Virus record (IMG/VR): IMGVR_UViG_3300026184_000140
Span: 1 to 42,799 of that record
Direction: 5' to 3' (one strand)
Length of the DNA: 42,799 nt
From: a virus
The notes beneath the pieces are model-generated. The model was given only the letters and a program-made list of their open reading frames with translations, was not told where the DNA came from and did not search any database. A program made the translations under genes and the position numbers. Below are positions 5,296 through 42,799 of this stretch, in pieces (position 1 is the first letter of the stretch; every line of letters starts with the position of its first letter).

Positions 5296-6045
5296 TCAGT
5301 CCTCGAGCTTCCAGGAGAACAGGCGATCTCCGGCGGCCCGGGTCATATCGGTCAGGAGCCGGCCGGTGATAGTCATTTCCGCTTGCTGCGCCTGGATGAG
5401 CCCCAGCACGCCCGGATCCAGTTTTACCCGGTACATTTCGCAGCGTGTCTGCTTATCGTTGTTGGCCCGGTTGAGGCCGGCAAACACCAGGTAATATTCC
5501 AGGTTGCCCGGATCCGCGGCGATATGGTGCTGATCGGCATAGTCGTAATCGAACAGTAGATCCTCGCCGTCGGTAATGGCGCCTATGGAGAGGATTTCGA
5601 TCAGGCCCTCATCGGCATGCACCACATAATCCATGTCGGCCACATAGGTGGTGACACCGGTGGAATCGGTGATCACGACGCTGCTGACCTTGGGATATTT
5701 CAGCGGCGTGAACTTATCCAGATAGCCCTTGTGCGCCTCGTCTGTGACGCTGCCGGCGGCCTTGGCGGTATTGCTGCCCTGCAGGGCCTGGGCCAGGTGT
5801 TCCGGCTTCACGGAGCGCATATTGATGCTGAGGCTGTATTCCAGGCTGTTGCGGATGCTGGATCCGATCAGGCGTTGGCCGGTGATGTTTTCGCGGACCT
5901 CGGAGGTATCCACGTTGGGCGTCAGGTTGGCCTCGCCCAGATCGCCGACGAACATCAGGCCGGCTGGCAGGCCGTTGGCGTCCCGCTGCGCGATAAACAG
6001 TGGCCCCTGCCCCGCGAAATAATAACTATCGAATTGTTCAGGCAT
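5296..6045 (-). CDS. Major tail (tube) protein
   Basis: The 249-residue protein begins MPEQFDSYYFAGQGPLFIAQ, contains a beta-rich core (LGEANLTPNVDTSEVRENI near residue 36) and ends with FSWKLED. Its position, just before the chaperone pair and tape measure, is that of the tube subunit of a long non-contractile tail. A central region with SSVVITDSTGVTTYVADMDY resembles an Ig-like or decoration loop. No sheath gene is seen, which supports a siphovirus. Confidence 0.87.
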   Translation of the reverse strand: MPEQFDSYYFAGQGPLFIAQRDANGLPAGLMFVGDLGEANLTPNVDTSEVRENITGQRLIGSSIRNSLEYSLSINMRSVKPEHLAQALQGSNTAKAAGSVTDEAHKGYLDKFTPLKYPKVSSVVITDSTGVTTYVADMDYVVHADEGLIEILSIGAITDGEDLLFDYDYADQHHIAADPGNLEYYLVFAGLNRANNDKQTRCEMYRVKLDPGVLGLIQAQQAEMTITGRLLTDMTRAAGDRLFSWKLED

Positions 6046-6524: not shown

Positions 6525-7019
6525 TCAATGTCTCGCTATTTCATCCAGGGCGCGCGCCAGCGCCTGGTCATAATTCTGCAGCACCCTGGGCTGCAATTCC
6601 TCCGCGGCCGGCTCCAGATATGGCTGCGCCGGCGTACCTTTCTCGCTGATCGAACGGCTGATCACGAAAGCAAGCTGATCCGCGCTCATGAGCGGATTCT
6701 CCGGCACGACATGCCGGGCCCGGATCCAGTCCAGCATGGATTCCCGCGGCGGCCAGCCGCCGGGGCCGGTGCCCTTCTCCACCATTTCGCCATAGTCCTC
6801 GGACGGACCGGTGATGCCGTCCAGCGGGCCATGCATTTCCATCTCGATGGAATTGGCCAGGGTAGTGAGGGCCTTGGGCGCATTGCGCCGGGCCAGGAAG
6901 CTGATCTCGAGGAGGCTGCGGCGGGTGGCATTGCCCATGTTCCGGAGCAGGATCTCGGGGGATTGCCGCATGGCGGCGCTGAATTCGCGTGAGCTGGTTT
7001 CCCAGGTAATGACATTCAT
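6525..7019 (-). CDS. HK97 gp10-like head-tail joining protein
   Basis: The 164-residue protein has an N-terminal helix with MRQSPEILLRNMGNATRRSL and a central GPSEDYGEMVEKGTGPGG motif. The pattern 'YGxxVExGTGP' is typical of HK97 gp10 and Mu virion morphogenesis proteins. It precedes the tail terminator-like gene and overlaps the preceding adaptor gene by 4 bases. Confidence 0.72.
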   Translation of the reverse strand: MNVITWETSSREFSAAMRQSPEILLRNMGNATRRSLLEISFLARRNAPKALTTLANSIEMEMHGPLDGITGPSEDYGEMVEKGTGPGGWPPRESMLDWIRARHVVPENPLMSADQLAFVISRSISEKGTPAQPYLEPAAEELQPRVLQNYDQALARALDEIARH

Positions 7020-30793: not shown

Positions 30794-31056
30794 CGCTGCT
30801 CGGCCTTCAGGTAATACAGCAGCTGCGCCAGCCAGATGGCGTTCACCAGGGCCAGGCAGACGCCGGCGCGGAAACTGAGCAGCTGCTGCAGATGCGGGTA
30901 ATAGAACAGATTCCAGACGCCCCAGGCGGTGAAAAACAGCACCGGCGCCCAGTGCACGCCGCGCACCAGCTTGTCCCGGTGCAGCCGGTGAATGCTGAGC
31001 AGCACCAGGGTGGCGCCGCAGGCCTCGAACAGGGCATTGATCAGATCCGGCGTCAC
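30790..31056 (-). CDS. Conserved phage membrane protein
   Basis: The 88-residue protein has three hydrophobic segments. The motif FEACGATLVLLSIHRLHRDK, followed by VRGVHWAPVLFFTAWGVWNL and FYYP, is one I recognise from hypothetical membrane proteins common in temperate phages. It is coupled to the small recombinase gene by ATGA. Function is unknown. Confidence 0.72.
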   Translation of the reverse strand: MTPDLINALFEACGATLVLLSIHRLHRDKLVRGVHWAPVLFFTAWGVWNLFYYPHLQQLLSFRAGVCLALVNAIWLAQLLYYLKAEQR

Positions 31057-31655
31057 GCCGCTCGCTCCAGCTCCAGTTCCATATCCTCCTTGTCCGGCCA
31101 GGTATAGATATCCGTCGATCGCCGATCGGAATGGCCCAGGGCGGCCATGACGATTAGCTGCGGATCCGCAGACTCGGAGGTTTTCATCAGATGCTTGGCG
31201 AGGGTATGCCGGAACCAGTGCGGCGAGAGGCCCAGATCCAGGCCGGCCTCGCTATCCCAATAGTTGCAGCGGTCCTGATAGCCGCGCACGGACAGGGCGC
31301 CGCCCTTGCGGCTCAGTACCAGGGGCGCGTCCTGATCCAGCTCATGGCCCTGCCGGCGGCGGATCTTGAGCAGGCGATCGAAGGCCTGGCGGCCGCGCTT
31401 GCAGACATAAATGCTGTGGCCCTTCTTGCGCTTCTGGATCGCCGGCTCGAGGGTCAGGTAGTAGGTTTTCACCACCTGCAGGGCATGGCGCACGGTGAGC
31501 CGGGAAAAGGCATCGATGCGCACGCCGGTATAACGCAGAGCCTGCATCCAGGCCAGGTCCCGCTCGGCCGTCAGGCCCTGGCGGGCGCCCATGGCACGGA
31601 ACAGCCGGCGCTCCTCCTGGACGGTCAGGTATTCCTTGAAGTAGGAGCGGCTCAT
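31053..31655 (-). CDS. Short tyrosine recombinase
   Basis: The 200-residue protein starts MSRSYFKEYLTVQEERRLFR. Catalytic residues are visible: Arg46 (YTGVRIDAF), a Lys near residue 78, HWFR at 146-149, His175 (ALGHSDRRS) and Tyr184 (DIYTWP). There is almost no N-terminal core-binding domain, so it is much shorter than usual phage integrases. It lies deep in the early operon. It could be a minimal recombinase or assist another. Confidence 0.83.
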   Translation of the reverse strand: MSRSYFKEYLTVQEERRLFRAMGARQGLTAERDLAWMQALRYTGVRIDAFSRLTVRHALQVVKTYYLTLEPAIQKRKKGHSIYVCKRGRQAFDRLLKIRRRQGHELDQDAPLVLSRKGGALSVRGYQDRCNYWDSEAGLDLGLSPHWFRHTLAKHLMKTSESADPQLIVMAALGHSDRRSTDIYTWPDKEDMELELERAA

Positions 31656-31960
31656 TTGCACTCCTCCAATAACTTCAGGGCACGGCTGGCGGTAATCTTT
31701 TTCAGCCCTTTCCACTCGCAATCATCAACGGCACACATGAATCTATAGGCCCAACGAGGCAGCTTTGTGACGATAATGCCGTGAAAATTCATCGGGGTGA
31801 GATAAGCAAACTTCTGGGGGCCGGCGGAATACGTAGCGCGATAACCGGTATAAGTCGATAGTGGACAGCCGCAGGACGAGCTGGGACGGCCAACAATCTG
31901 CCCGGGCCTGAATGATTCCAGCCAGGCCCTGAACTGGTCATACGTGACACGTTTTATCAT
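31652..31960 (-). CDS. Hypothetical early protein
   Basis: The 102-residue protein begins MIKRVTYDQFRAWLESFRPG and contains QIVGRPSSSCGCPLSTYTGY. The 'VGRxxxxCxCPL' pattern is one I associate with hypothetical phage proteins. The stop overlaps the recombinase ATG. No function is assigned. Confidence 0.66.
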   Translation of the reverse strand: MIKRVTYDQFRAWLESFRPGQIVGRPSSSCGCPLSTYTGYRATYSAGPQKFAYLTPMNFHGIIVTKLPRWAYRFMCAVDDCEWKGLKKITASRALKLLEECK

Positions 31961-34028: not shown

Positions 34029-34292
34029 TTAATGGCAGAGGATGAAGGTAAGAAAAAAACCGGCGGCGGAGAGCAGGATTGCCACCAGCTCGGTGAGAAA
34101 GGTTGATGTCAGGATGTGATCAATGAGACTGGCGAGCTGCCTTTGCGAAGGGGCCGGCGCCACCCGGCCAACCTTCTCCCCGCTTCGTGCTACGCAACCC
34201 CGGGATGAGGTACGGGTACATGAGCGTTCTGATTTCCGGGACGCTGGCAAACGCCCCTCAATCCCTTCGCAAAGGCAGCTCTTGGGATTCAT
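34029..34292 (-). CDS. Small membrane protein with in-frame repeat insertion
   Basis: The 87-residue frame begins MNPK at an ATG overlapping the CII-like stop (ATGA) and ends in a clear membrane helix (LTELVAILLSAAGFFLTFIL). Residues about 5-52 are encoded by a 148-base element with 19-bp inverted ends. That part is basic, low in protein-like character, and keeps the frame open. The ancestral protein was probably about 40 residues with one membrane helix. Whether the long form is made is unknown. Confidence 0.5.
   Translation of the reverse strand: MNPKSCLCEGIEGRLPASRKSERSCTRTSSRGCVARSGEKVGRVAPAPSQRQLASLIDHILTSTFLTELVAILLSAAGFFLTFILCH
34134..34281. repeat. 148-bp element with 19-bp perfect inverted ends (MITE/REP-like)
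   Basis: GAGCTGCCTTTGCGAAGGG (34134-34152) is the exact reverse complement of CCCTTCGCAAAGGCAGCTC (34263-34281). The 110 bases between hold smaller inverted arms. It sits inside the N-terminus of a small gene. No target duplication is obvious. It resembles a non-autonomous mobile repeat, or encodes a long-stem RNA. Confidence 0.65.
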
Positions 34293-34753
34293 GCATCCAC
34301 CGCCAGGCACTGCAGCCGCGCGCGCAGTTCCAGCATGGCGCGGATATCCTCCATGAACTCGCGGTCGATCTCGTTGAATTCCTGCCTGGTTATCTCTCCA
34401 TCCGCAATGGCTGCCCTGATGGCGCCGGCGGTCTCTCCGATTTCCGAATGCATATGCGCGTAGGCATCCAGCAGCGCCATATCAGACAGGTGGCAGAAGT
34501 CGCCCAGATCAATGCAGGAGTGATGACAGGCATGGGCGACGGCGTGGAGGATCCGGTAATCCTGCGCCTGGTTCATAATGGCGATCAGTTCCGGACCGGT
34601 GAAATGGTGATTGAGCATGGCGGGGTTTGCCTTGTTGGCAAACGTGCCCGGGTTTCTGCCCAGGAGCTCAGCCAGGCCGGCCGCCCCCCTGCACTCACCG
34701 CGGCGGAAATCATGCACGGTGTTATAAATAGCCAGTTCCACGTTGCTGATCAT
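34289..34753 (-). CDS. CII-type phage regulatory protein (CP76 family)
   Basis: The 154-residue protein begins MISNVELAIYNTVHDFRRGE and has ELLGRNPGTFANKANP followed by HHFTGPELIAIMNQAQDYRI. This is the pattern of the P2/186-type CII (Phage_CP76) family, which activates integrase or repressor promoters during the lysogeny decision. It is the first gene of the leftward early operon. A hairpin (34764-34792) encloses its Shine-Dalgarno, so translation may be regulated. Confidence 0.82.
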   Translation of the reverse strand: MISNVELAIYNTVHDFRRGECRGAAGLAELLGRNPGTFANKANPAMLNHHFTGPELIAIMNQAQDYRILHAVAHACHHSCIDLGDFCHLSDMALLDAYAHMHSEIGETAGAIRAAIADGEITRQEFNEIDREFMEDIRAMLELRARLQCLAVDA

Positions 34754-34763
34754 GTGAAATACC

Positions 34764-34792
34764 CCTCCATGTCCACATGGTTATCATGGAGG
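34764..34792 (-). promoter_or_regulatory. Hairpin sequestering the CII Shine-Dalgarno
   Basis: In the mRNA, CCTCCATG pairs with CATGGAGG around a 13-nt loop. The 3' arm contains GGAGG, the ribosome site for ATG 34753. The loop region also contains the perfect DNA palindrome CCATGTCCACATGG (34767-34780), so a protein operator is an alternative reading. Confidence 0.55.
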
Positions 34793-34823
34793 CTACCGGC
34801 GACACACCGCGGCGCTATGCTAC

Positions 34824-34852
34824 ACTACACGCCGAGGTGAAATGGTGACCAA
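34824..34852 (-). promoter_or_regulatory. Candidate leftward early promoter
   Basis: Minus-strand TTGGTC (34852-34847) and TGTAGT (34829-34824) are 17 bases apart, upstream of the CII-like gene. Each box matches consensus at about four of six positions. Confidence 0.35.
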
Positions 34853-34869
34853 GCCAGTAACCTCAACCC

Positions 34870-34901
34870 TTCCCCGCCGGCGGTGCAACGTCGGCGGGGA
34901 A
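34870..34901 (-). terminator. GC-rich hairpin after the leftward RHH gene
   Basis: TTCCCCGCCG (34870-34879) pairs perfectly with CGGCGGGGAA (34892-34901) around a 12-nt loop. It lies 30 bases after the end of the RHH gene. No U tract follows on the minus strand, so it is a weak terminator or an RNA-stabilising stem. Confidence 0.45.
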
Positions 34902-34932
34902 CCTTATATCAATTCTTTGTCCGTTCTATAGT

Positions 34933-35100
34933 TTATGCCGATACTTCTTGGATTCTTTCGGAGGCAAACCGCAGCAGAAAGATGATCTCTGTATTCCGGG
35001 AGCGGCCGTTCTTCCTGGCGGAAGTCTCCAGCTTCTTCACCAGATCACGGGGCAGCCGGATATTGATCTGCGGATCGGACCTTTTCGCTATCGCGCTCAT
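34933..35100 (-). CDS. Arc-type ribbon-helix-helix regulator
   Basis: The 55-residue protein starts MSAIAKRSDPQINIRLPRDL at ATG 35100. The beta strand (QINIRLP) followed by two helices (LVKKLETSARKNGRSRNTEI) is the Arc/Mnt fold, which binds DNA as paired dimers. It is transcribed leftward from a good promoter (35158-35130) and faces a second RHH gene across 84 bases, like a genetic switch. Confidence 0.82.
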   Translation of the reverse strand: MSAIAKRSDPQINIRLPRDLVKKLETSARKNGRSRNTEIIFLLRFASERIQEVSA

Positions 35101-35184
35101 AGTAGCACCGTAATACATTAATGGAGCTAAATGTAGCTGACTACTATATTGCCGTCAAGCAGTTTATATAGCACAGTACTATCT
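35101..35184. promoter_or_regulatory. Divergent switch region with candidate operators
   Basis: This 84-base gap separates two RHH genes. It contains GTAG-CTGA-CTAC (35133-35144) inside the leftward promoter spacer, TAGCACAGTACTA (35169-35181) next to the rightward start, and TAGTAGCACC straddling the leftward start (35099-35108). TAGTA/TACTA half-sites recur, as in P22 Arc and Mnt operators. A rightward -10 may be TATATA at 35165-35170, giving a very short leader. Confidence 0.5.
35130..35158 (-). promoter_or_regulatory. Leftward promoter of the RHH gene
   Basis: Minus-strand TTGACG (35158-35153) and TACATT (35135-35130) are separated by 17 bases. The -35 matches consensus at five of six positions. 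An inverted repeat lies in the spacer. Confidence 0.62.
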
Positions 35185-35607
35185 ATGGCTAGAAACGATG
35201 CACAGATTAATCTCTATGTTCCGCCGGATTTTAAGCGGGAAATTCAACAACTTGCGAAGGCGCATCAGCGTAGTGTCACAGCAGAGATAATCTCCCGGCT
35301 GCAGGCCTCGATAAATGCGGATGAATTTAGCCGCGGCGCCGAATCCGGCGACCCCTACGCGGCCGCCTTGGCCGCCTCCGAAACCATTCGGACGGCAACC
35401 AAGGTCTTGGATAAGGCATTGCTGAAAATCGGTGTGGAGGAAGGCAGGGTCCAGATCGGAGAGGAGACGGAAACCTATCAGATAAGCCCCGTGAACGACG
35501 ATGAAATGGAGTTGCTGCAGCGCATGCGCCAGGCATCGCCGGAACTCAGAAAGGCAGTGTTTGATCTGCTCACAGCACTCGGGCGGAAACAGGGCCCCCT
35601 ACCCTGA
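35185..35607 (+). CDS. Arc-type RHH repressor candidate, the only rightward gene
   Basis: The 140-residue protein starts MARNDAQINLYVPPDFKREI at ATG 35185. An Arc-type RHH domain (residues 1-50, QINLYVP, then QLAKAHQRSVTAEIISRLQA) is followed by a C-terminal helical extension of about 90 residues with Ala-rich and Gln/Glu-rich parts, probably for oligomerisation. It has no Shine-Dalgarno and a very short leader. Being divergent from the lytic direction, it is the best candidate for the prophage repressor. Confidence 0.83.
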   Translation: MARNDAQINLYVPPDFKREIQQLAKAHQRSVTAEIISRLQASINADEFSRGAESGDPYAAALAASETIRTATKVLDKALLKIGVEEGRVQIGEETETYQISPVNDDEMELLQRMRQASPELRKAVFDLLTALGRKQGPLP

Positions 35608-35615
35608 ATGGTTTT

Positions 35616-36056
35616 TCATATAGTCCCCTCATCCGGCGCCAATATTTCCGCCCGTCTCGCCTCTGTGATAAGTCCCGCCTGCACGAGCTGATCCATGCCG
35701 GATAAAGTATCAATATCGTCAGCATAGACGCGGCGAGCGGTGCGGAGCATGTCCAGGTAATCCTCCATGAGGGGCTCCTGCCGCGCCGCCGCTCGAATAT
35801 TGATGCGCTCCTGCCGGGTGAATCGGCCAAGAAAATCGCGAGGCGTCCAGGAAGTTCGCGGCGGCGGTGCTTCGCCACCGATGACAATAAGTTCCGGCGT
35901 GGTGACGCCGGCCTGTAGAATCAGATCTTCCAATTCAGCACTACCGATACCAATCCGCGCCAGAGTCTTCGCATCACAGTGATGCAGCGTGATGAGCGCC
36001 CGCTCATAGTCATTGCCCTGCAACGACAGCAGATATTGTTTGCTCTCGATTCTCAT
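35616..36056 (-). CDS. Hypothetical protein at the end of the late operon
   Basis: The 146-residue protein starts MRIESKQYLLSLQGNDYERA at ATG 36056. The C-terminal part has the pattern WTPRDFLGRFTRQERINIRA followed by ARRVYADDIDTLSGMDQL and a last helix ending AEILAPDEGTI. I have seen this pattern in phage proteins encoded after tail fibres. It overlaps the Avd-RT remnant by 47 bases in another frame. Confidence 0.68.
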   Translation of the reverse strand: MRIESKQYLLSLQGNDYERALITLHHCDAKTLARIGIGSAELEDLILQAGVTTPELIVIGGEAPPPRTSWTPRDFLGRFTRQERINIRAAARQEPLMEDYLDMLRTARRVYADDIDTLSGMDQLVQAGLITEARRAEILAPDEGTI

Positions 36057-36507
36057 GTTCGATCTCCAGGTAGGATAACAGGTTATGGCTGTCCGCCCAG
36101 CCGGCGTGCCCGGTCCAGGCCGACAGGAATCTTGATAATGCTTCCTCGTCGCCACCCTCGCGCAGGGACTTGATGGCTCTCTTTGCCCGCGTCACGCTAC
36201 TGCGGCGGAGCAGCTTGTGTTTGGGCCAGATCCGGTAACCGAGGAAATTAACGCCCCGAGTCACTGGCGCGATGGTCCATTTGCTGAGCTTGAGGCCGAG
36301 ACGCTCTTTCGAGACCGCACGCATAGCGTTGAGCGTGCGTCTCAATATTTCCGTATCCAGCATCGCCCGCAGAAACAACTCACGCGCGCATCCGTGCTTG
36401 CGTGGGACGTTCTGCGCGACGGGGTACATGTAATTAATAAATTTTTCATATTTCTCCACAATCGCCAGTTGCTCGATCGGCGCATTCTCATCCTTAATCG
36501 TTTCCAT
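36010..36507 (-). pseudogene. Avd-reverse transcriptase deletion fusion (DGR remnant)
   Basis: The 165-residue ORF has two unrelated halves. Residues about 1-52 (AIVEKYEKFINYMYPVAQNV, PRKHGCARELFLRAML) match the N-terminus of Avd, the four-helix DGR accessory protein. Residues about 53-145 (ERLGLKLSKWTIAPVTRGVN, FLGYRIWPKHKLLRR, SAWTGHAGWADSHNLL) match the thumb and C-terminal end of DGR reverse transcriptases. The rest of Avd, the template repeat and the catalytic YxDD core are absent. The junction is near 36348-36360 and stays in frame. It cannot be an active polymerase by itself. Confidence 0.78.
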
Positions 36508-36545
36508 ACCTCGCTCCCATTATTACGACAATGGATCATGACAAC

Positions 36546-36565
36546 GGCAGCGCTACCGCGCTGCC
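36546..36565. promoter_or_regulatory. DGR-type hairpin at the end of the variable repeat
   Basis: GGCAGCGC pairs with GCGCTGCC around a 4-nt loop, starting at the tail-fibre stop codon. An 8-bp GC-rich stem with a 4-nt loop just downstream of the variable repeat is the known target-site hairpin of BPP-1-type DGRs. Confidence 0.75.
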
Positions 36566-38223
36566 TAAACAAGTCTCAGGTGGTCACTGCAGCCGCGAGC
36601 CCCGATGACGCCGCCCGAGTTGGACGGCTGAAAGCCCCAGTTCGAACAGCGCGACCCGGCCTGGACGCCGAGGCTCCAGTGGCCGCCGAAAAGCACGACA
36701 TTATCCACCTCATACGTCTGGCCACGGCCTTGCGTGATGTTTTCCCAAACGCCGGCGGCGGCGTCGGGATTGCTGCCGCCGAACTCGCTGCCCCAAATAT
36801 ACATCACGCCGGTCGACTGGATTACGCCCCAGCGACTGGTGAATTTTTCGTCAGTGTTGTTGGTGCCGATATTGCTATCGCTGATACCCGTTGTCACTGA
36901 ATCGTTGCCGCGAAACACTGCTTCACTCGTGCCGTAGGCCAGCGCGGCAAACTCCGCGTAACTGGGCAGACGCTTGCCGTGCGCAGCCAACACCTCGGCC
37001 AGGCTCCACCAATTGGCATTACTGTAGACGCTAGTACCGTCGCCGCCGAATTCGTCCGGGAGCTTCGGCGAGCTCGCTCCGTCGGCAATCGTGACGCCGT
37101 GCGCCGAGGTGCCGTTGACGTGATGATCCACGCCGAGCAAGTAGATATCCGCCCAGAAATTCCCAGCCACCAATGTCATCCCCCGAGGATCATCACAAGC
37201 CGGACGCCATTTGAGATCCCAGAAGGAATACTCGTTGATCTGCGCGGTGGTATTGCCGCCCGACTGTGCGGATGCGTTGCCGCCGGGCGCGTAATGAAAG
37301 CCGCCGATACGGCGGGCATCAGTGACCGGCGGTGTGACGTAACTGCTAGTGGCCTCCAGCGTCCCATCCGGATGGATCCAGATCACATAGTCCGTGCCGG
37401 CGGCCGGCGAGCCGGGCATGGTGATGGAGGTGGCGGCGGCGATCTCGTACACCATGCCGCTGACCTCGATGCTCAGCGCCTGCGCTGTCTCTGCGGTGAA
37501 ATTGCCGGTTTTGGACCAGGCGACGGTGTCGGGGGAGGATTTGGCGAAAAGGGAGGAGACGTACGCGAGACGCCAGATGCGGTTGCCGGCGGCGTCCGTG
37601 CCATACACCTTGTTGTTGCCGGGCGCGTCCTGGTCCCCCACCAGCTGCAGATCGCCGCTGTCGATCTCGACGCTGCGCTTGATGCCGGCGGTCGCGGCCG
37701 TGCCCAGCTCGTCAATGGTGAGCGTGGCGCTCTCCCAATGGGCGGCGCCGACATTGGCATCCAGACACAGGAAGACTTCCGTAGTAACGGTATTGAGCCA
37801 TTTGGATCCGATGCTATATCCGGCGCTGCTGTCATCATTTACCCCGGGGTCCGCTACGGCGGTGAAGTTGTTCTGATGATAGGCTGCATAGGCGGTCACC
37901 CATGCGGCGCCATCCCACCGGACTGTGACATCCTCGTCCAGGAGCGAGGCTGTCATCCATTCCCTGGGGGCAATGAATTTCCACACGCCATTCAGGTAAT
38001 AGGCGATCTCGTTTGCATGTCCCGCCCAGAGGCCGGTTGCGCCCGGGCCGACGATGTAGGCATCCCCGTCCGCAGGCGTGCCTGGCGGCACGGTAAGATC
38101 GCGATCTATGGCCACGAAATGCTGCGCGCCCTGTTCCAGGCGGCGGAAAGCCTCGTTGGCGGTCAGGTATTTGCTGGCCTGGGCCTGGTTGATTTCTGTG
38201 ATTCCGAGTATGGGGCTGGGCAT
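36565..38223 (-). CDS. Tail fibre with DUF2793 N-terminus and DGR-type variable domain
   Basis: The 552-residue protein has an N-terminal DUF2793-like domain (residues about 1-110: ITEINQAQASKYLTANEAFR, GPGATGLWAGHANEIAYYL), a beta-rich middle, and a C-terminal C-type-lectin/FGE-like fold (residues about 400-552). The last 40 residues (GGHWSLGVQAGSRCSNWGFQ and onward to SDHLRLV) match DGR variable regions. It is presumably the receptor-binding tip. Its ATG shares one base with the tail hub stop. Confidence 0.85.
   Translation of the reverse strand: MPSPILGITEINQAQASKYLTANEAFRRLEQGAQHFVAIDRDLTVPPGTPADGDAYIVGPGATGLWAGHANEIAYYLNGVWKFIAPREWMTASLLDEDVTVRWDGAAWVTAYAAYHQNNFTAVADPGVNDDSSAGYSIGSKWLNTVTTEVFLCLDANVGAAHWESATLTIDELGTAATAGIKRSVEIDSGDLQLVGDQDAPGNNKVYGTDAAGNRIWRLAYVSSLFAKSSPDTVAWSKTGNFTAETAQALSIEVSGMVYEIAAATSITMPGSPAAGTDYVIWIHPDGTLEATSSYVTPPVTDARRIGGFHYAPGGNASAQSGGNTTAQINEYSFWDLKWRPACDDPRGMTLVAGNFWADIYLLGVDHHVNGTSAHGVTIADGASSPKLPDEFGGDGTSVYSNANWWSLAEVLAAHGKRLPSYAEFAALAYGTSEAVFRGNDSVTTGISDSNIGTNNTDEKFTSRWGVIQSTGVMYIWGSEFGGSNPDAAAGVWENITQGRGQTYEVDNVVLFGGHWSLGVQAGSRCSNWGFQPSNSGGVIGARGCSDHLRLV
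36568..36687 (-). other. DGR variable repeat (VR)
   Basis: This covers residues 513-552 of the tail fibre. Invariant positions (GG.W..G, AGSRCSNW, PSNS, IGARG, SDHLRLV) alternate with odd codons CAC, AGC, CTC, GTC, GGC, TTT, GGC, GGC and GTC. Nearly all end in C or T, as expected if AAC/AAT codons of a template were changed at adenines. The exact 5' limit is unknown because no template is present. Confidence 0.7.
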
Positions 38224-41200
38224 CAGACGGTGACCTCTTTGCGGTGGCCGCGGCCGATCTGCTGGGACAGCTGATAGATCCGGAGATCGATATTGGCCGG
38301 ATCCGGCACGCCGTCGGCAGTCTGCTGCGCATTGCTGTAGGAGAAAGTGACCCGATCGGCCAGATTGAACATGGCCGGATCGTCATCGGAACTATAGGTG
38401 GCCAGGACCGCGCCGCCATTCATGACATCAATCTCGTAGACCTCCCGATCCTCGTCCAGGGGGGCATTAATGAAATCCACCCAGGCGTTGTTCAGGCGGG
38501 CGCGGCGGATGAATTCTACGGTGAGATCGCCGGCGGTGGCGCGGGCGGCCTCCACGTCCCAGACGGTGAAGGGCTTGAGGATGCGGCCGCTGTAGGACAG
38601 CTCCTGATATTCATTTTCGTCCAGGCTCTCACCGATGGAGACCACGGCGAAGCGGCGCGGGGTATTCAGGTCATTGATCGAAGTCGGCACGAAACGCACG
38701 CCGGCGGTCTGCAGCAATACGAACCGCTCCCCGATGTAATGGCCGTCCATTTCCGGCTCGGTGCCCTGACGGCCGCGCAGGAAGCCTGAGAGGCGATATA
38801 GGTTATCGCCCAGGGCCGTGACGTCCTTGAACTGCAGGATCTCGTTACCGATCAGGGCCGCGTTGGCGCCGTTCAGGACGGCCAGCTCGCCTGAGGCCGA
38901 GGCCAGGGTCCCGGCGCCCAGGATCTGCACATCCACGGTATGTATATAGTCCCAGACGGCACTCTCGCCGCCGCCCAGTGCGGTGATTGTCTTGCCGATG
39001 GCCGTCTGCTCGGTGAAAGAATCGAAAAACTGCCAGGTCTCACCGTTATCCACGGAGCGATATAATGCGCAGCCGCGCCAGCTGCTGGTGAAGCCGGAGA
39101 CGGCAATATAATAGCCGGGACCGGTATCGCCGGAACGAATGGCATTGATATCCAAGATATCCATGATGGTGGGGCCGGAGAGCTGCAGGCCACTGCCCAC
39201 CTGATTGGCGCCCGTATCGCCGGCGGCGGCGTCATTGGTCAGCACGGCCGCGGAATACGGGATGCCTTCGAAACTGATCAGGCTGGAATAGCCGACCCGG
39301 GTCAGCAGGATCACATGGCTGATGCCGTTCACGGTCACGGTAATAGCATCGCCTGGCAGCAGGCCGATATAATCCATGGGCAGATGATCCTTGTACCGCC
39401 GGCGCTGGGTCCACGCCAGGGATAACAGGATATCCGCCACCTGGGCGGCCTCATCGGCGGTGAATACCACGGGAATATTCAGTGTCTTTTTATTCTCGCC
39501 CACGGAAGTATCACGCAGGGCGCGCATGGTATTGACTTCGAAGTCCCGGCCGGCATCCATATAGGAAAAATCGATGGCCTTGGGCAGCTCGAAATCCGGG
39601 GTGGTGGTAAACGGCAGCAGATCGCCCTGGGCCTGGTCGACGCCGGTGCGCAGATCATCGGCATCCACGCTGATCGGTAACAGGGTGGTCAGATCCACGA
39701 ATTTCAGCACGGAGCCTTCCTGGCGGACCATGAAGCGGAAAATATTCATCAGCTGCTCAAGGGGCCGACGGGCCTCCATGCGACGATCCCGGACATAACC
39801 GCGCACGCTGGTGCCGGCGAGATCGGTCACGTCATACTGGCCCGCCTGCAGGCCCGCCTCCTGGCAGATGGCGGCGACAATGGTATCCAGGGTCGGATCC
39901 GCGCCCGGTGTGCTGCCGAATACATACCAGCGGCTGTAATAGATATTATCCGGGCTGCCGCTGTTATACCAGGAACGCAGGCCGCCGACGTTTTCCGCCA
40001 TGGCCAGGGTCAGCGGCAGGGTGGCGGAATTGAGATTGGAGACAAAACTATCGATCATTTCCGCCTGCAAGGGGACGTTCGCCTGATCCAGATCGATGCG
40101 ATACAGCGTAAATGTGCCTGAATAATACCAGGCCAGATACAGCCAGTTATTCACTACCTGCAGCGGCGCGAACGAGGGAGATCCGAAACCGAAGCTCTGA
40201 GCTGTTTCTTCAAAGGTCTTGACGGCGGAGCCATGCGCCACGGCGCAAACATCATAATCCGATCCGTTCTGACGCAAATAATAGAATTTCGTGGCGTGGA
40301 TATAACAGGCGATGGCATAGCTGGTGGTACCGCGCGGTACCTGATCGATATAGACCTGGGTATTGGTATCCAGATCAAGATAAACCAGGTATTGGGCATC
40401 GATCAGGTAATACAGATGCTGGCCGTAAATGGCGACGGCAAAGGCCTCGTTGCCGGCCGGGTTGTAACCGCCCGGGAGGATGCTTGTATCCACTGCGATC
40501 AATCGCTCCGGATCATCGCTATCCACGTCACAGAACCACAAATTTTCCCCGTATGGTTTGTTGTATAACTGCCGGCAGATTACCCGCCGGTTTTCCGGCG
40601 AGACAAGCTGGTGGCCGATACCGTTGAGGCTGCTGCCCAGGTTCAGATCGCCGCCGTCCTTGAAGAGCGGATATTTGTGCAGATACTTGACGCGGGTGGT
40701 CTGGCCGCCGCCGGCGCCCATGGCATCCGACCAGGAAATCACGATGAGCGTGGAACCCTTGGGCAATTTATAAGCCACACTGCCGTCTGCGGGATCTTCG
40801 AACCAGCCCACTTTTTTGTATTCACAATAGGCCGCATGGATCCAGGCGCGGCTGTTCTTGTCGATCAGGCCTGGCGTCCAGGTGGTGAAGGTATAGGGCT
40901 TCGGAAAAATCAGGCCATCGTCACCGGCGGTAATCGTGAGCTGCTTGTCCACCTCCACCGCGCTTTCCGTATCGTAATCAATCAGGCTGCCGGCGTGGAT
41001 TTTCCAGAACCAGTCATCATCCGTGGTGCCGCTGGGATTCCTCTGCAGGTAAACGTCGGCCGCCTTGCTGAGGCCGCTGAGCTGCGAACTGGAGGCAATC
41101 AGGGCGGCGATAGTCGGCGGGCGATTGCCGTATTTCTTCAGTTGCAGACCCTCGAAAACCACATAGGTGTAGCCTCTGAAGCCGGAAGCATTGCCGGCGC

Positions 41201-41765
41201 CGACAATGGATTCCACCACCGGATCCGGAAGCTGATCCTCTGTGCCGGTGTAAATATTCATGCTGGTGAAATTCTGGTTGGCGGAGACTATTGCGCCTTT
41301 GGTCAAATGGTCCAATACTGGGAACAACTCGGGTGGATATCCCTGCAGGCCGGTAAAATTAATCAGCTCCTCACCATCCGCGTAGATCTTGAGTATATCC
41401 GCCGACCCCTCACAAAACAGCACGGCACAATCAATGGTATAGGTATAGGTAGTGCGTTTTTGCGTGGGCTGACCGCCCTTGCCGCCGGCCTCCTCCGTAT
41501 GGGCATGCTCCTGCAGATCCGTGGAAACAATATAATGCCCGCCGACCGTGGCCTGGCCGTAGACGCGCGGGATATCCACGCCATAGCCGGACGTGGTGAC
41601 CTTGAGATTGTCCAGGCGCGGACCTTGCGCGCTCGGCAGTTCCGGGGGAAAGAGCGTGGAACCGACCACGGAACCGACAGCATAGCCCAGGGCCGGATTG
41701 CCGAAGAAGGCGCCGACGACGCCGCCGACAATGCCGAAACCCAGGGAAATGGTATTGTCGGACAT
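38223..41765 (-). CDS. Tail hub / host-specificity protein (J/GTA gp15-like)
   Basis: The 1180-residue protein starts MSDNTISLGFGIVGGVVGAF, a Gly-rich hydrophobic stretch typical of this family. A beta-rich region with PRVYGQATVGGHYIVSTDLQ follows, and a Phage-tail_3-like central part (DLAGTSVRGYVRDRRMEARR, then PLEQLMNIFRFMVRQEG, residues about 640-690). It corresponds to lambda J or GTA gp15, the central hub to which fibres attach. It follows the NlpC/P60 gene and precedes the tail fibre gene. A segment about 350-600 looks like a beta-propeller-type insertion (DLDTNTQVYIDQVPRGTTSY). Confidence 0.87.
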   Translation of the reverse strand: MSDNTISLGFGIVGGVVGAFFGNPALGYAVGSVVGSTLFPPELPSAQGPRLDNLKVTTSGYGVDIPRVYGQATVGGHYIVSTDLQEHAHTEEAGGKGGQPTQKRTTYTYTIDCAVLFCEGSADILKIYADGEELINFTGLQGYPPELFPVLDHLTKGAIVSANQNFTSMNIYTGTEDQLPDPVVESIVGAGNASGFRGYTYVVFEGLQLKKYGNRPPTIAALIASSSQLSGLSKAADVYLQRNPSGTTDDDWFWKIHAGSLIDYDTESAVEVDKQLTITAGDDGLIFPKPYTFTTWTPGLIDKNSRAWIHAAYCEYKKVGWFEDPADGSVAYKLPKGSTLIVISWSDAMGAGGGQTTRVKYLHKYPLFKDGGDLNLGSSLNGIGHQLVSPENRRVICRQLYNKPYGENLWFCDVDSDDPERLIAVDTSILPGGYNPAGNEAFAVAIYGQHLYYLIDAQYLVYLDLDTNTQVYIDQVPRGTTSYAIACYIHATKFYYLRQNGSDYDVCAVAHGSAVKTFEETAQSFGFGSPSFAPLQVVNNWLYLAWYYSGTFTLYRIDLDQANVPLQAEMIDSFVSNLNSATLPLTLAMAENVGGLRSWYNSGSPDNIYYSRWYVFGSTPGADPTLDTIVAAICQEAGLQAGQYDVTDLAGTSVRGYVRDRRMEARRPLEQLMNIFRFMVRQEGSVLKFVDLTTLLPISVDADDLRTGVDQAQGDLLPFTTTPDFELPKAIDFSYMDAGRDFEVNTMRALRDTSVGENKKTLNIPVVFTADEAAQVADILLSLAWTQRRRYKDHLPMDYIGLLPGDAITVTVNGISHVILLTRVGYSSLISFEGIPYSAAVLTNDAAAGDTGANQVGSGLQLSGPTIMDILDINAIRSGDTGPGYYIAVSGFTSSWRGCALYRSVDNGETWQFFDSFTEQTAIGKTITALGGGESAVWDYIHTVDVQILGAGTLASASGELAVLNGANAALIGNEILQFKDVTALGDNLYRLSGFLRGRQGTEPEMDGHYIGERFVLLQTAGVRFVPTSINDLNTPRRFAVVSIGESLDENEYQELSYSGRILKPFTVWDVEAARATAGDLTVEFIRRARLNNAWVDFINAPLDEDREVYEIDVMNGGAVLATYSSDDDPAMFNLADRVTFSYSNAQQTADGVPDPANIDLRIYQLSQQIGRGHRKEVTV

Positions 41766-42226: not shown

Positions 42227-42799
42227 AACGGATCAGGAACTTGTCGCCGGGGATATCCGGAAAGCCGCGGTGATTGACCACATTATCGAATTTGTCGCGG
42301 CAATCGGTACTGCGGCGCTTGCGGCAGCCGGCCAGGGCATCGAAGGTATCACCGGCCTGGATATCGTTGGGCATGGCATCATAGAGTGTGAACTTCTGTC
42401 CACCGCTAAAGGTCTTGATATCCGCCTTCAAACCGGCATTGGCGCCGCCGGTCCAGGTCAATACGCCGGCGCCGAAATAATCCGCCGCCTTGCCGGTAAT
42501 CGCCGGCGTGGTGGTATCGAAAAACGTGGCATTGTCCGTTACGGCGGTCACGGTGCCGGAGAAGGTGAAGGCGCCCGCGACCAGGCCACAGCGGGCATCC
42601 GTGAATTCAGCATCGCAGAGCGGGCCGATAATGCGGCCGATAGACTGGCGCAGCTTGTGATCAAGCGCCAGCACTTCCACTTCGAAGGTATTCCCTTTCT
42701 CGGTTACCTCACCGATGGTGCCGGTGAAAAACGTCCAGATGGTATTGGCGATATCGTTATAGTCCGCCTTGAAGATTTCCAGGGTGGCGCCACGCAGCC
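42207..42799 (-). CDS. DUF2163 tail protein, C-terminal part (continues at 404)
   Basis: This is the 3' part of the gene that begins at 404 and crosses the circle join. It contains LALDHKLRQSIGRIIGPLCD, then AEFTDARCGLV, which is the DUF2163/BR0599 C-terminal signature, and CRKRRSTDCRDKFDNVVNHR near the end. In this copy of the terminal repeat one codon differs (Glu for Ala). Read as a circle, the protein is 289 residues. Confidence 0.85.
   Translation of the reverse strand, partial: LRGATLEIFKADYNDIANTIWTFFTGTIGEVTEKGNTFEVEVLALDHKLRQSIGRIIGPLCDAEFTDARCGLVAGAFTFSGTVTAVTDNATFFDTTTPAITGKAADYFGAGVLTWTGGANAGLKADIKTFSGGQKFTLYDAMPNDIQAGDTFDALAGCRKRRSTDCRDKFDNVVNHRGFPDIPGDKFLIRYAHPGA
42673..42799. 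repeat. Terminal direct repeat, right copy
   Basis: Same 127 bases as 1-127 with one difference (T at 42778 for G at 106). See the left copy for interpretation. Confidence 0.9.

Follow-up and report, generated by a model that had tools for sequence, protein, structure and literature searches.

Results

Genomic context and layout of the locus

The locus lies in IMG/VR virus record IMGVR_UViG_3300026184_000140, analysed here at its full length of 42,799 nt (the window). Read along the minus strand, it comprises a tail tip gene, an Mtd-like tail gene with a variable repeat (VR), a hairpin, a single ORF that joins a piece of avd to a piece of the reverse transcriptase (RT) gene of a diversity-generating retroelement (DGR), and a downstream gene (Table 1). 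The two ends of the record share a direct repeat of 127 nt with one mismatch (1-127 and 42673-42799), which suggests that the record is a nearly complete genome, circular or circularly permuted; it is classed as having no end repeats despite this terminal repeat. Three regulators are encoded beside the DGR relic at 34289-35607, one CII-like (CP76) and two, divergent, of the Arc/ribbon-helix-helix type; together with an apparent site-specific recombinase at 31053-31721, they point to a temperate phage.

Table 1. Coordinates of features at the collapsed DGR locus, in gene order
Feature	Position	Strand	Basis
Tail tip/host-specificity protein (Phage-tail_3, Rcc01698_C), upstream of target gene	38223..41765	-	Library matches
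Mtd-like tail target gene (DUF2793, Mtd second domain PF21916, phrog_11262)	36565..38223	-	Library matches
Variable repeat (VR)	36579..36699	-	Alignment to L089 template repeat
Target hairpin/cruciform, GGCAGCGC-GGTA-GCGCTGCC, perfect 8-bp stem, GRNA loop	36546..36565	-	Consensus from PMC3240598
Avd-RT fusion ORF, 165 aa, collapsed DGR cassette	36010..36507	-	Translation, profile and PDB matches
avd remnant, codons 1-50 (first ~52 of ~122-130 Avd residues)	36358..36507	-	Profile, 8ub7, L089 comparison
Deletion junction, after L50, at or near D51-T52	36352..36360	-	Alignment with L089
RT remnant, thumb and C-terminal region (profile 224-325; BPP-1 RT 223-322)	36055..36357	-	Profile, 8ub7
GGAG Shine-Dalgarno for downstream gene, within RT remnant	36064..36067	-	Motif scan; functional role inferred
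Downstream gene MRIESKQYLL..., phrog_25252	35616..36056	-	PHROG match, L089 homology

A fusion of the start of Avd to the end of a DGR RT

The fusion ORF begins with ATG, contains no internal stops, and divides cleanly at residues 51-52, a split on which profile and PDB matches agree. In curated libraries, its first part matches the NCBIfam Avd family NF033474 (residues 14-63, E 2e-7) and Pfam PF22296 bAvd (residues 15-62, E 1e-6), both scores falling under the curated cut-offs because the fusion holds just half of the Avd family, and its second part matches the PHROG RT family phrog_1423 (residues 51-149, E 2e-23). Custom profiles made from intact relatives (lengths 122 for Avd and 327 for RT) assign fusion residues 1-52 to Avd positions 1-52 (E 2e-22) and residues 52-153 to RT positions 224-325 (E 3e-43). 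Against the solved BPP-1 bRT-Avd complex (PDB 8ub7), residues 1-52 correspond to Avd 1-52 and residues 51-150 to RT 223-322. The RT remnant carries neither YMDD nor (I/V/L)GxxxSQ. A sequence-only reading had proposed that this ORF begins as Avd and finishes as a DGR RT C-terminus, and both halves bear this out, with the coordinates, identities and gene order that it gave.

Comparison with an intact syntenic counterpart reveals what the window has lost. This locus, L089, retains avd, a template repeat (TR) at 463-583, the full RT and a downstream gene homologous to that of the window. Alignment to it places the junction near 36357, inside the interval of 36340-36370 named beforehand, and sizes the missing stretch at ~1,159 nt (L089 232-1390); the equivalent span in 130 intact loci has a median of 1,168 nt. 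L089 is the closest intact relative, and it is only ~77% identical to the window at the breakpoint, with 77% DNA identity over avd. The nearest phage relative (L189), 85% identical in DNA over the tail tip gene, was useless for sizing the deletion, its entire fibre and DGR region having been exchanged: the fibre C-terminus and DGR region (L189 4574-6399, window 36000-37980) are swapped for a different fibre without a DGR, and such module swaps may be another route to DGR loss.

Searches of the whole 42.8-kb record found no second DGR RT, the sole match being the fusion fragment, and no TR copy of the VR, in a search that recovered the TRs of two control loci (L013 and L015). Compared with what a functional DGR contains, the locus thus has no RT with YxDD and (I/V/L)GxxxSQ, only RT profile positions 224-325; no TR that matches the VR with adenine-specific differences; and only residues 1-52 of ~122 of the accessory protein Avd. 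It does have a target gene with a VR at its 3' end and a GC-rich hairpin with a GRNA loop 3' of the VR. Synteny with L089 puts the avd and RT pieces in canonical order, at the orthologous position and between orthologous flanks, as expected of a relic. Profiles, the TR search, the 8ub7 comparison and L089 together support the earlier proposal that a single deletion of roughly 1 kb or more took the template and catalytic core, at a size of ~1.16 kb.

The target gene retains its variable repeat and hairpin

The C-terminus of the Mtd-like target protein is a typical DGR variable region. The VR differs from the L089 TR at 13/22 TR adenines and at 25/99 other sites (Fisher p = 0.004), and because the differences are enriched at TR adenines, an L089-like template probably wrote this VR before the loss. 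The hairpin starts at the last base of the target stop codon. Phage VRs are followed, 4-34 bp downstream, by 7-10-bp GC-rich stems with GRNA loops, and in BPP-1 the hairpin structure is required for efficient homing (Guo et al., PMC3240598). In our collection, a hairpin with a GRNA loop and a stem of 6 bp or more lies 3' of the target in 68/104 intact loci, against 1/14 targets without a recognised DGR and 0.05% of shuffled sequences. Elsewhere, L006 carries three tandem Mtd-like tail genes (3530, 4807 and 6070; L006-L009), with avd-like fragments after two and decayed hairpin-like sequences after all three, which we read as a target array after DGR loss.

Loss of the native RT stop and age of the collapse

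In relatives, the RT stop TGA overlaps the next ATG (ATGA). Directly before this overlap, at 36057-36060, the window is one base short, so that the fusion frame misses the native stop of RT and continues for 15 added codons within the next gene. The fusion is otherwise little altered: among highly conserved columns (at least 90%), 0/23 are changed in RT and 1/9 in Avd (L>M). The collapse is probably recent, since the conserved columns are nearly unaltered and the hairpin is perfect. The same undecayed hairpin and conserved residues would also suit continued use of the target or the fusion.

The end of RT carries the start of the next gene

Why does the end of a dead gene persist? The downstream gene overlaps the fusion ORF by 47 nt and is homologous to the gene that follows the intact RT in L089 (MRIESK vs MRLESK); used as a query against viral_contigs, it returned no relatives. 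The gene after RT starts within the RT gene in 123/146 RT-bearing loci, the RT end of 84/116 distinct intact loci combines an ATG and a Shine-Dalgarno motif, and in 82/84 of these the motif falls inside the RT ORF. The ATG and a GGAG at Shine-Dalgarno spacing are kept in all ten decayed loci, the window included. From these ten remnants we infer that the RT 3' end persists because it bears the Shine-Dalgarno of the next gene and overlaps its start codon, the embedded ribosome-binding site determining which part of RT survives; selection on the next gene would purge deletions that reach beyond the GGAG, or such deletions would for that reason escape observation. Retention of the RT 3' end is in part expected, since deletions that destroy the next gene would go unseen. 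Nor is the RT tail indispensable, because six DGR-less relatives (L012, L019, L043, L049, L063 and L080) start a similar downstream gene from other upstream sequence, without an RT tail. The ribosome-binding site would account for the last RT codons, not for the ~100 RT codons in the window, which we take to reflect a chance breakpoint position.

Other decayed cassettes and the question of the frame

Besides the window, nine loci carry decayed cassettes, one of them in an isolate genome, and they range from an internal deletion in RT to the mere last few RT codons. At the mild end, L177 has lost RT 128-225 including YMDD and has kept its TR. Two further loci are in-frame fusions: L085 joins Avd 7-34 to RT 187-322, and in L179, which comes from an isolate (Thiocystis violacea DSM 207), a nearly complete Avd runs into RT 298-326. 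An RT tail follows avd out of frame in L042 and L011; L078, also out of frame, retains six codons of avd and the final ones of RT. In L023, L036 and L039 nothing but the final RT codons is left behind the tail gene; in other relatives the tail gene directly adjoins the next gene. The RT-tail remnants align to intact RT ends with DNA scores of 20-61 (shuffled sequences at most 13), the weakest being that of L036, much of which also falls in the start of the next gene. The ten events are not all independent, as L011 and L023 carry one and the same remnant (5880-5963 and 6948-7010). L011 has a complete avd and L023 has none; the TTAA(A)GGGC present at either end hints at a second deletion, by microhomology.

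The frame is kept in 3/6 avd-to-RT collapses (window, L085 and L179), all three of which came from queries favouring in-frame fusions or from the sequence-only reading, and in 0/3 of those for which the tail gene served as the search anchor (L011, L042 and L078); given these out-of-frame cases, we dropped frame preservation as a sign of selection. The breakpoints also differ widely (Avd 34/RT 187, 52/224 and 119/298). The sequence-only reading had taken the open frame as a hint of a collapse either recent or selected: recency is favoured by the conserved columns and the perfect hairpin, and selection is left unsupported by the frame statistics and the lost RT stop.

A scan of viral_contigs for a VEKYE-to-NFLGY gap of 181-241 nt found only L085; at a gap of 241-301 nt, L213 was a chance match. 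Among 369 gammaproteobacterial genomes there were no Avd-RT fusions beyond that of Thiocystis, whose whole genome contains no second VR copy; one of its other RTs resembles a group II intron RT. Two further loci are candidate inactivated DGRs of other kinds: L166 (6726-8309), whose RT has an apparent insertion of ~21 residues, and L185 (6018-7274, Herbaspirillum MAG), whose RT is truncated after ~147 residues.

Discussion

The locus is, with good probability, a dead DGR of the BPP-1 type, in which the RT 3' end has been kept for the Shine-Dalgarno of the next gene, and an intermediate in the stepwise erosion of such cassettes. A single deletion of ~1.16 kb joined avd codon 50 to the codon for RT residue ~223, so that RT has lost its fingers, palm and YMDD core, and the TR and the remainder of avd are gone as well. 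By the established requirements of DGRs, the cassette should be incapable of mutagenic homing alone, because the TR, the catalytic core and most of Avd are gone, and the tail protein would therefore be fixed, barring a matching DGR in trans. The VR sequence would then be frozen as it stood at the time of loss, and receptor specificity would no longer shift by mutagenic homing. We regard the hybrid protein as most likely inert, a mere by-product. Deletions that took the RT 3' end as well would silence the next gene.

The alternative that survives best, although we consider it unlikely, is that the target is still diversified in trans: a DGR of the host or of a co-resident prophage, with a matching TR, would supply Avd, RT and TR-RNA, and the phage would keep VR, IMH and hairpin. 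That the window has a perfect hairpin of a kind so rare in DGR-less tail genes fits such an arrangement, and BPP-1 lacking avd-TR-brt does switch tropism once a plasmid supplies the three (PMC3240598). A recent deletion accounts for an undecayed hairpin equally well, however, the window genome holds no TR, the parallel isolate genome of Thiocystis violacea lacks a second VR copy, and nothing positive points to a partner DGR. It is less probable still that assembly created the junction as a chimera, or that the deletion is a minority variant in a phage population that holds the intact cassette. The source is a metagenome contig, and VR/TR repeats can confuse assemblers, but the breakpoints lie in avd and RT, outside VR and TR, collapses are present elsewhere, including one in an isolate genome, and the fusion shows, at the end of RT, a 1-nt change of its own. 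Least probable is selection for the fusion protein, whether as a dominant-negative, by binding the Avd or RT that superinfecting DGR phages bring in, or as a repurposed nucleic-acid-binding thumb: the open frame, the unaltered conserved columns and the two further in-frame fusions would suit it, but the scattered breakpoints imply no common product, the frame is not kept once query bias is removed, and the 1-nt shift removed the native RT stop and added codons from the next gene.

A broader pattern, somewhat less likely than not, can be put forward tentatively. Tailed phages could recurrently end host-range diversification by internal deletions that spare the VR and hairpin, and the RT 3' end as the ribosome-binding site of the next gene, yielding phages of fixed tropism in which recombination, or a DGR in trans, could restore diversification. 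DGRs have mostly been catalogued intact, as searches require RT and TR. Relics such as these show how phages cease to diversify a receptor-binding protein, and the loss leaves a legible trail, from fusion, to avd and RT tail, to RT tail alone. The embedded ribosome-binding site would account for the persistence of a piece of a dead gene, and it would make 'fixed' ex-DGR tail proteins easy to find and let the loss be dated by hairpin decay.

How does the window compare with known systems? It resembles the BPP-1 DGR (mtd-avd-TR-brt; PDB 8ub7, 4dwl) in gene order, Mtd-type target, Avd and RT homology, the GRNA hairpin after the target and an RT that overlaps the next gene; unlike BPP-1, it has lost the 3' part of avd, the TR and RT residues 1-222, and its avd is fused to the RT thumb. 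In the papers open to search, we found inactivated DGRs and no Avd-RT fusion or nested DGR erosion. The DiGReF survey described inactivated DGRs with a destroyed RT (PMC3521204), apparently recent as here. Those arose by transposon insertions and by nonsense or frameshift mutations and kept their VR/TR pairs, whereas the window has an internal deletion, no TR and avd joined to RT, and decay at the loci described here recurs as a nested series. The laboratory deletion BPP-1 deltaATR (PMC3240598) likewise keeps target, VR and hairpin with avd-TR-brt removed, but it was engineered and complemented in trans, whereas the window is natural and retains the avd 5' end and the RT 3' end. Inactivated DGRs were thus already known; the Avd-RT fusion and the nested erosion series appear to be new.
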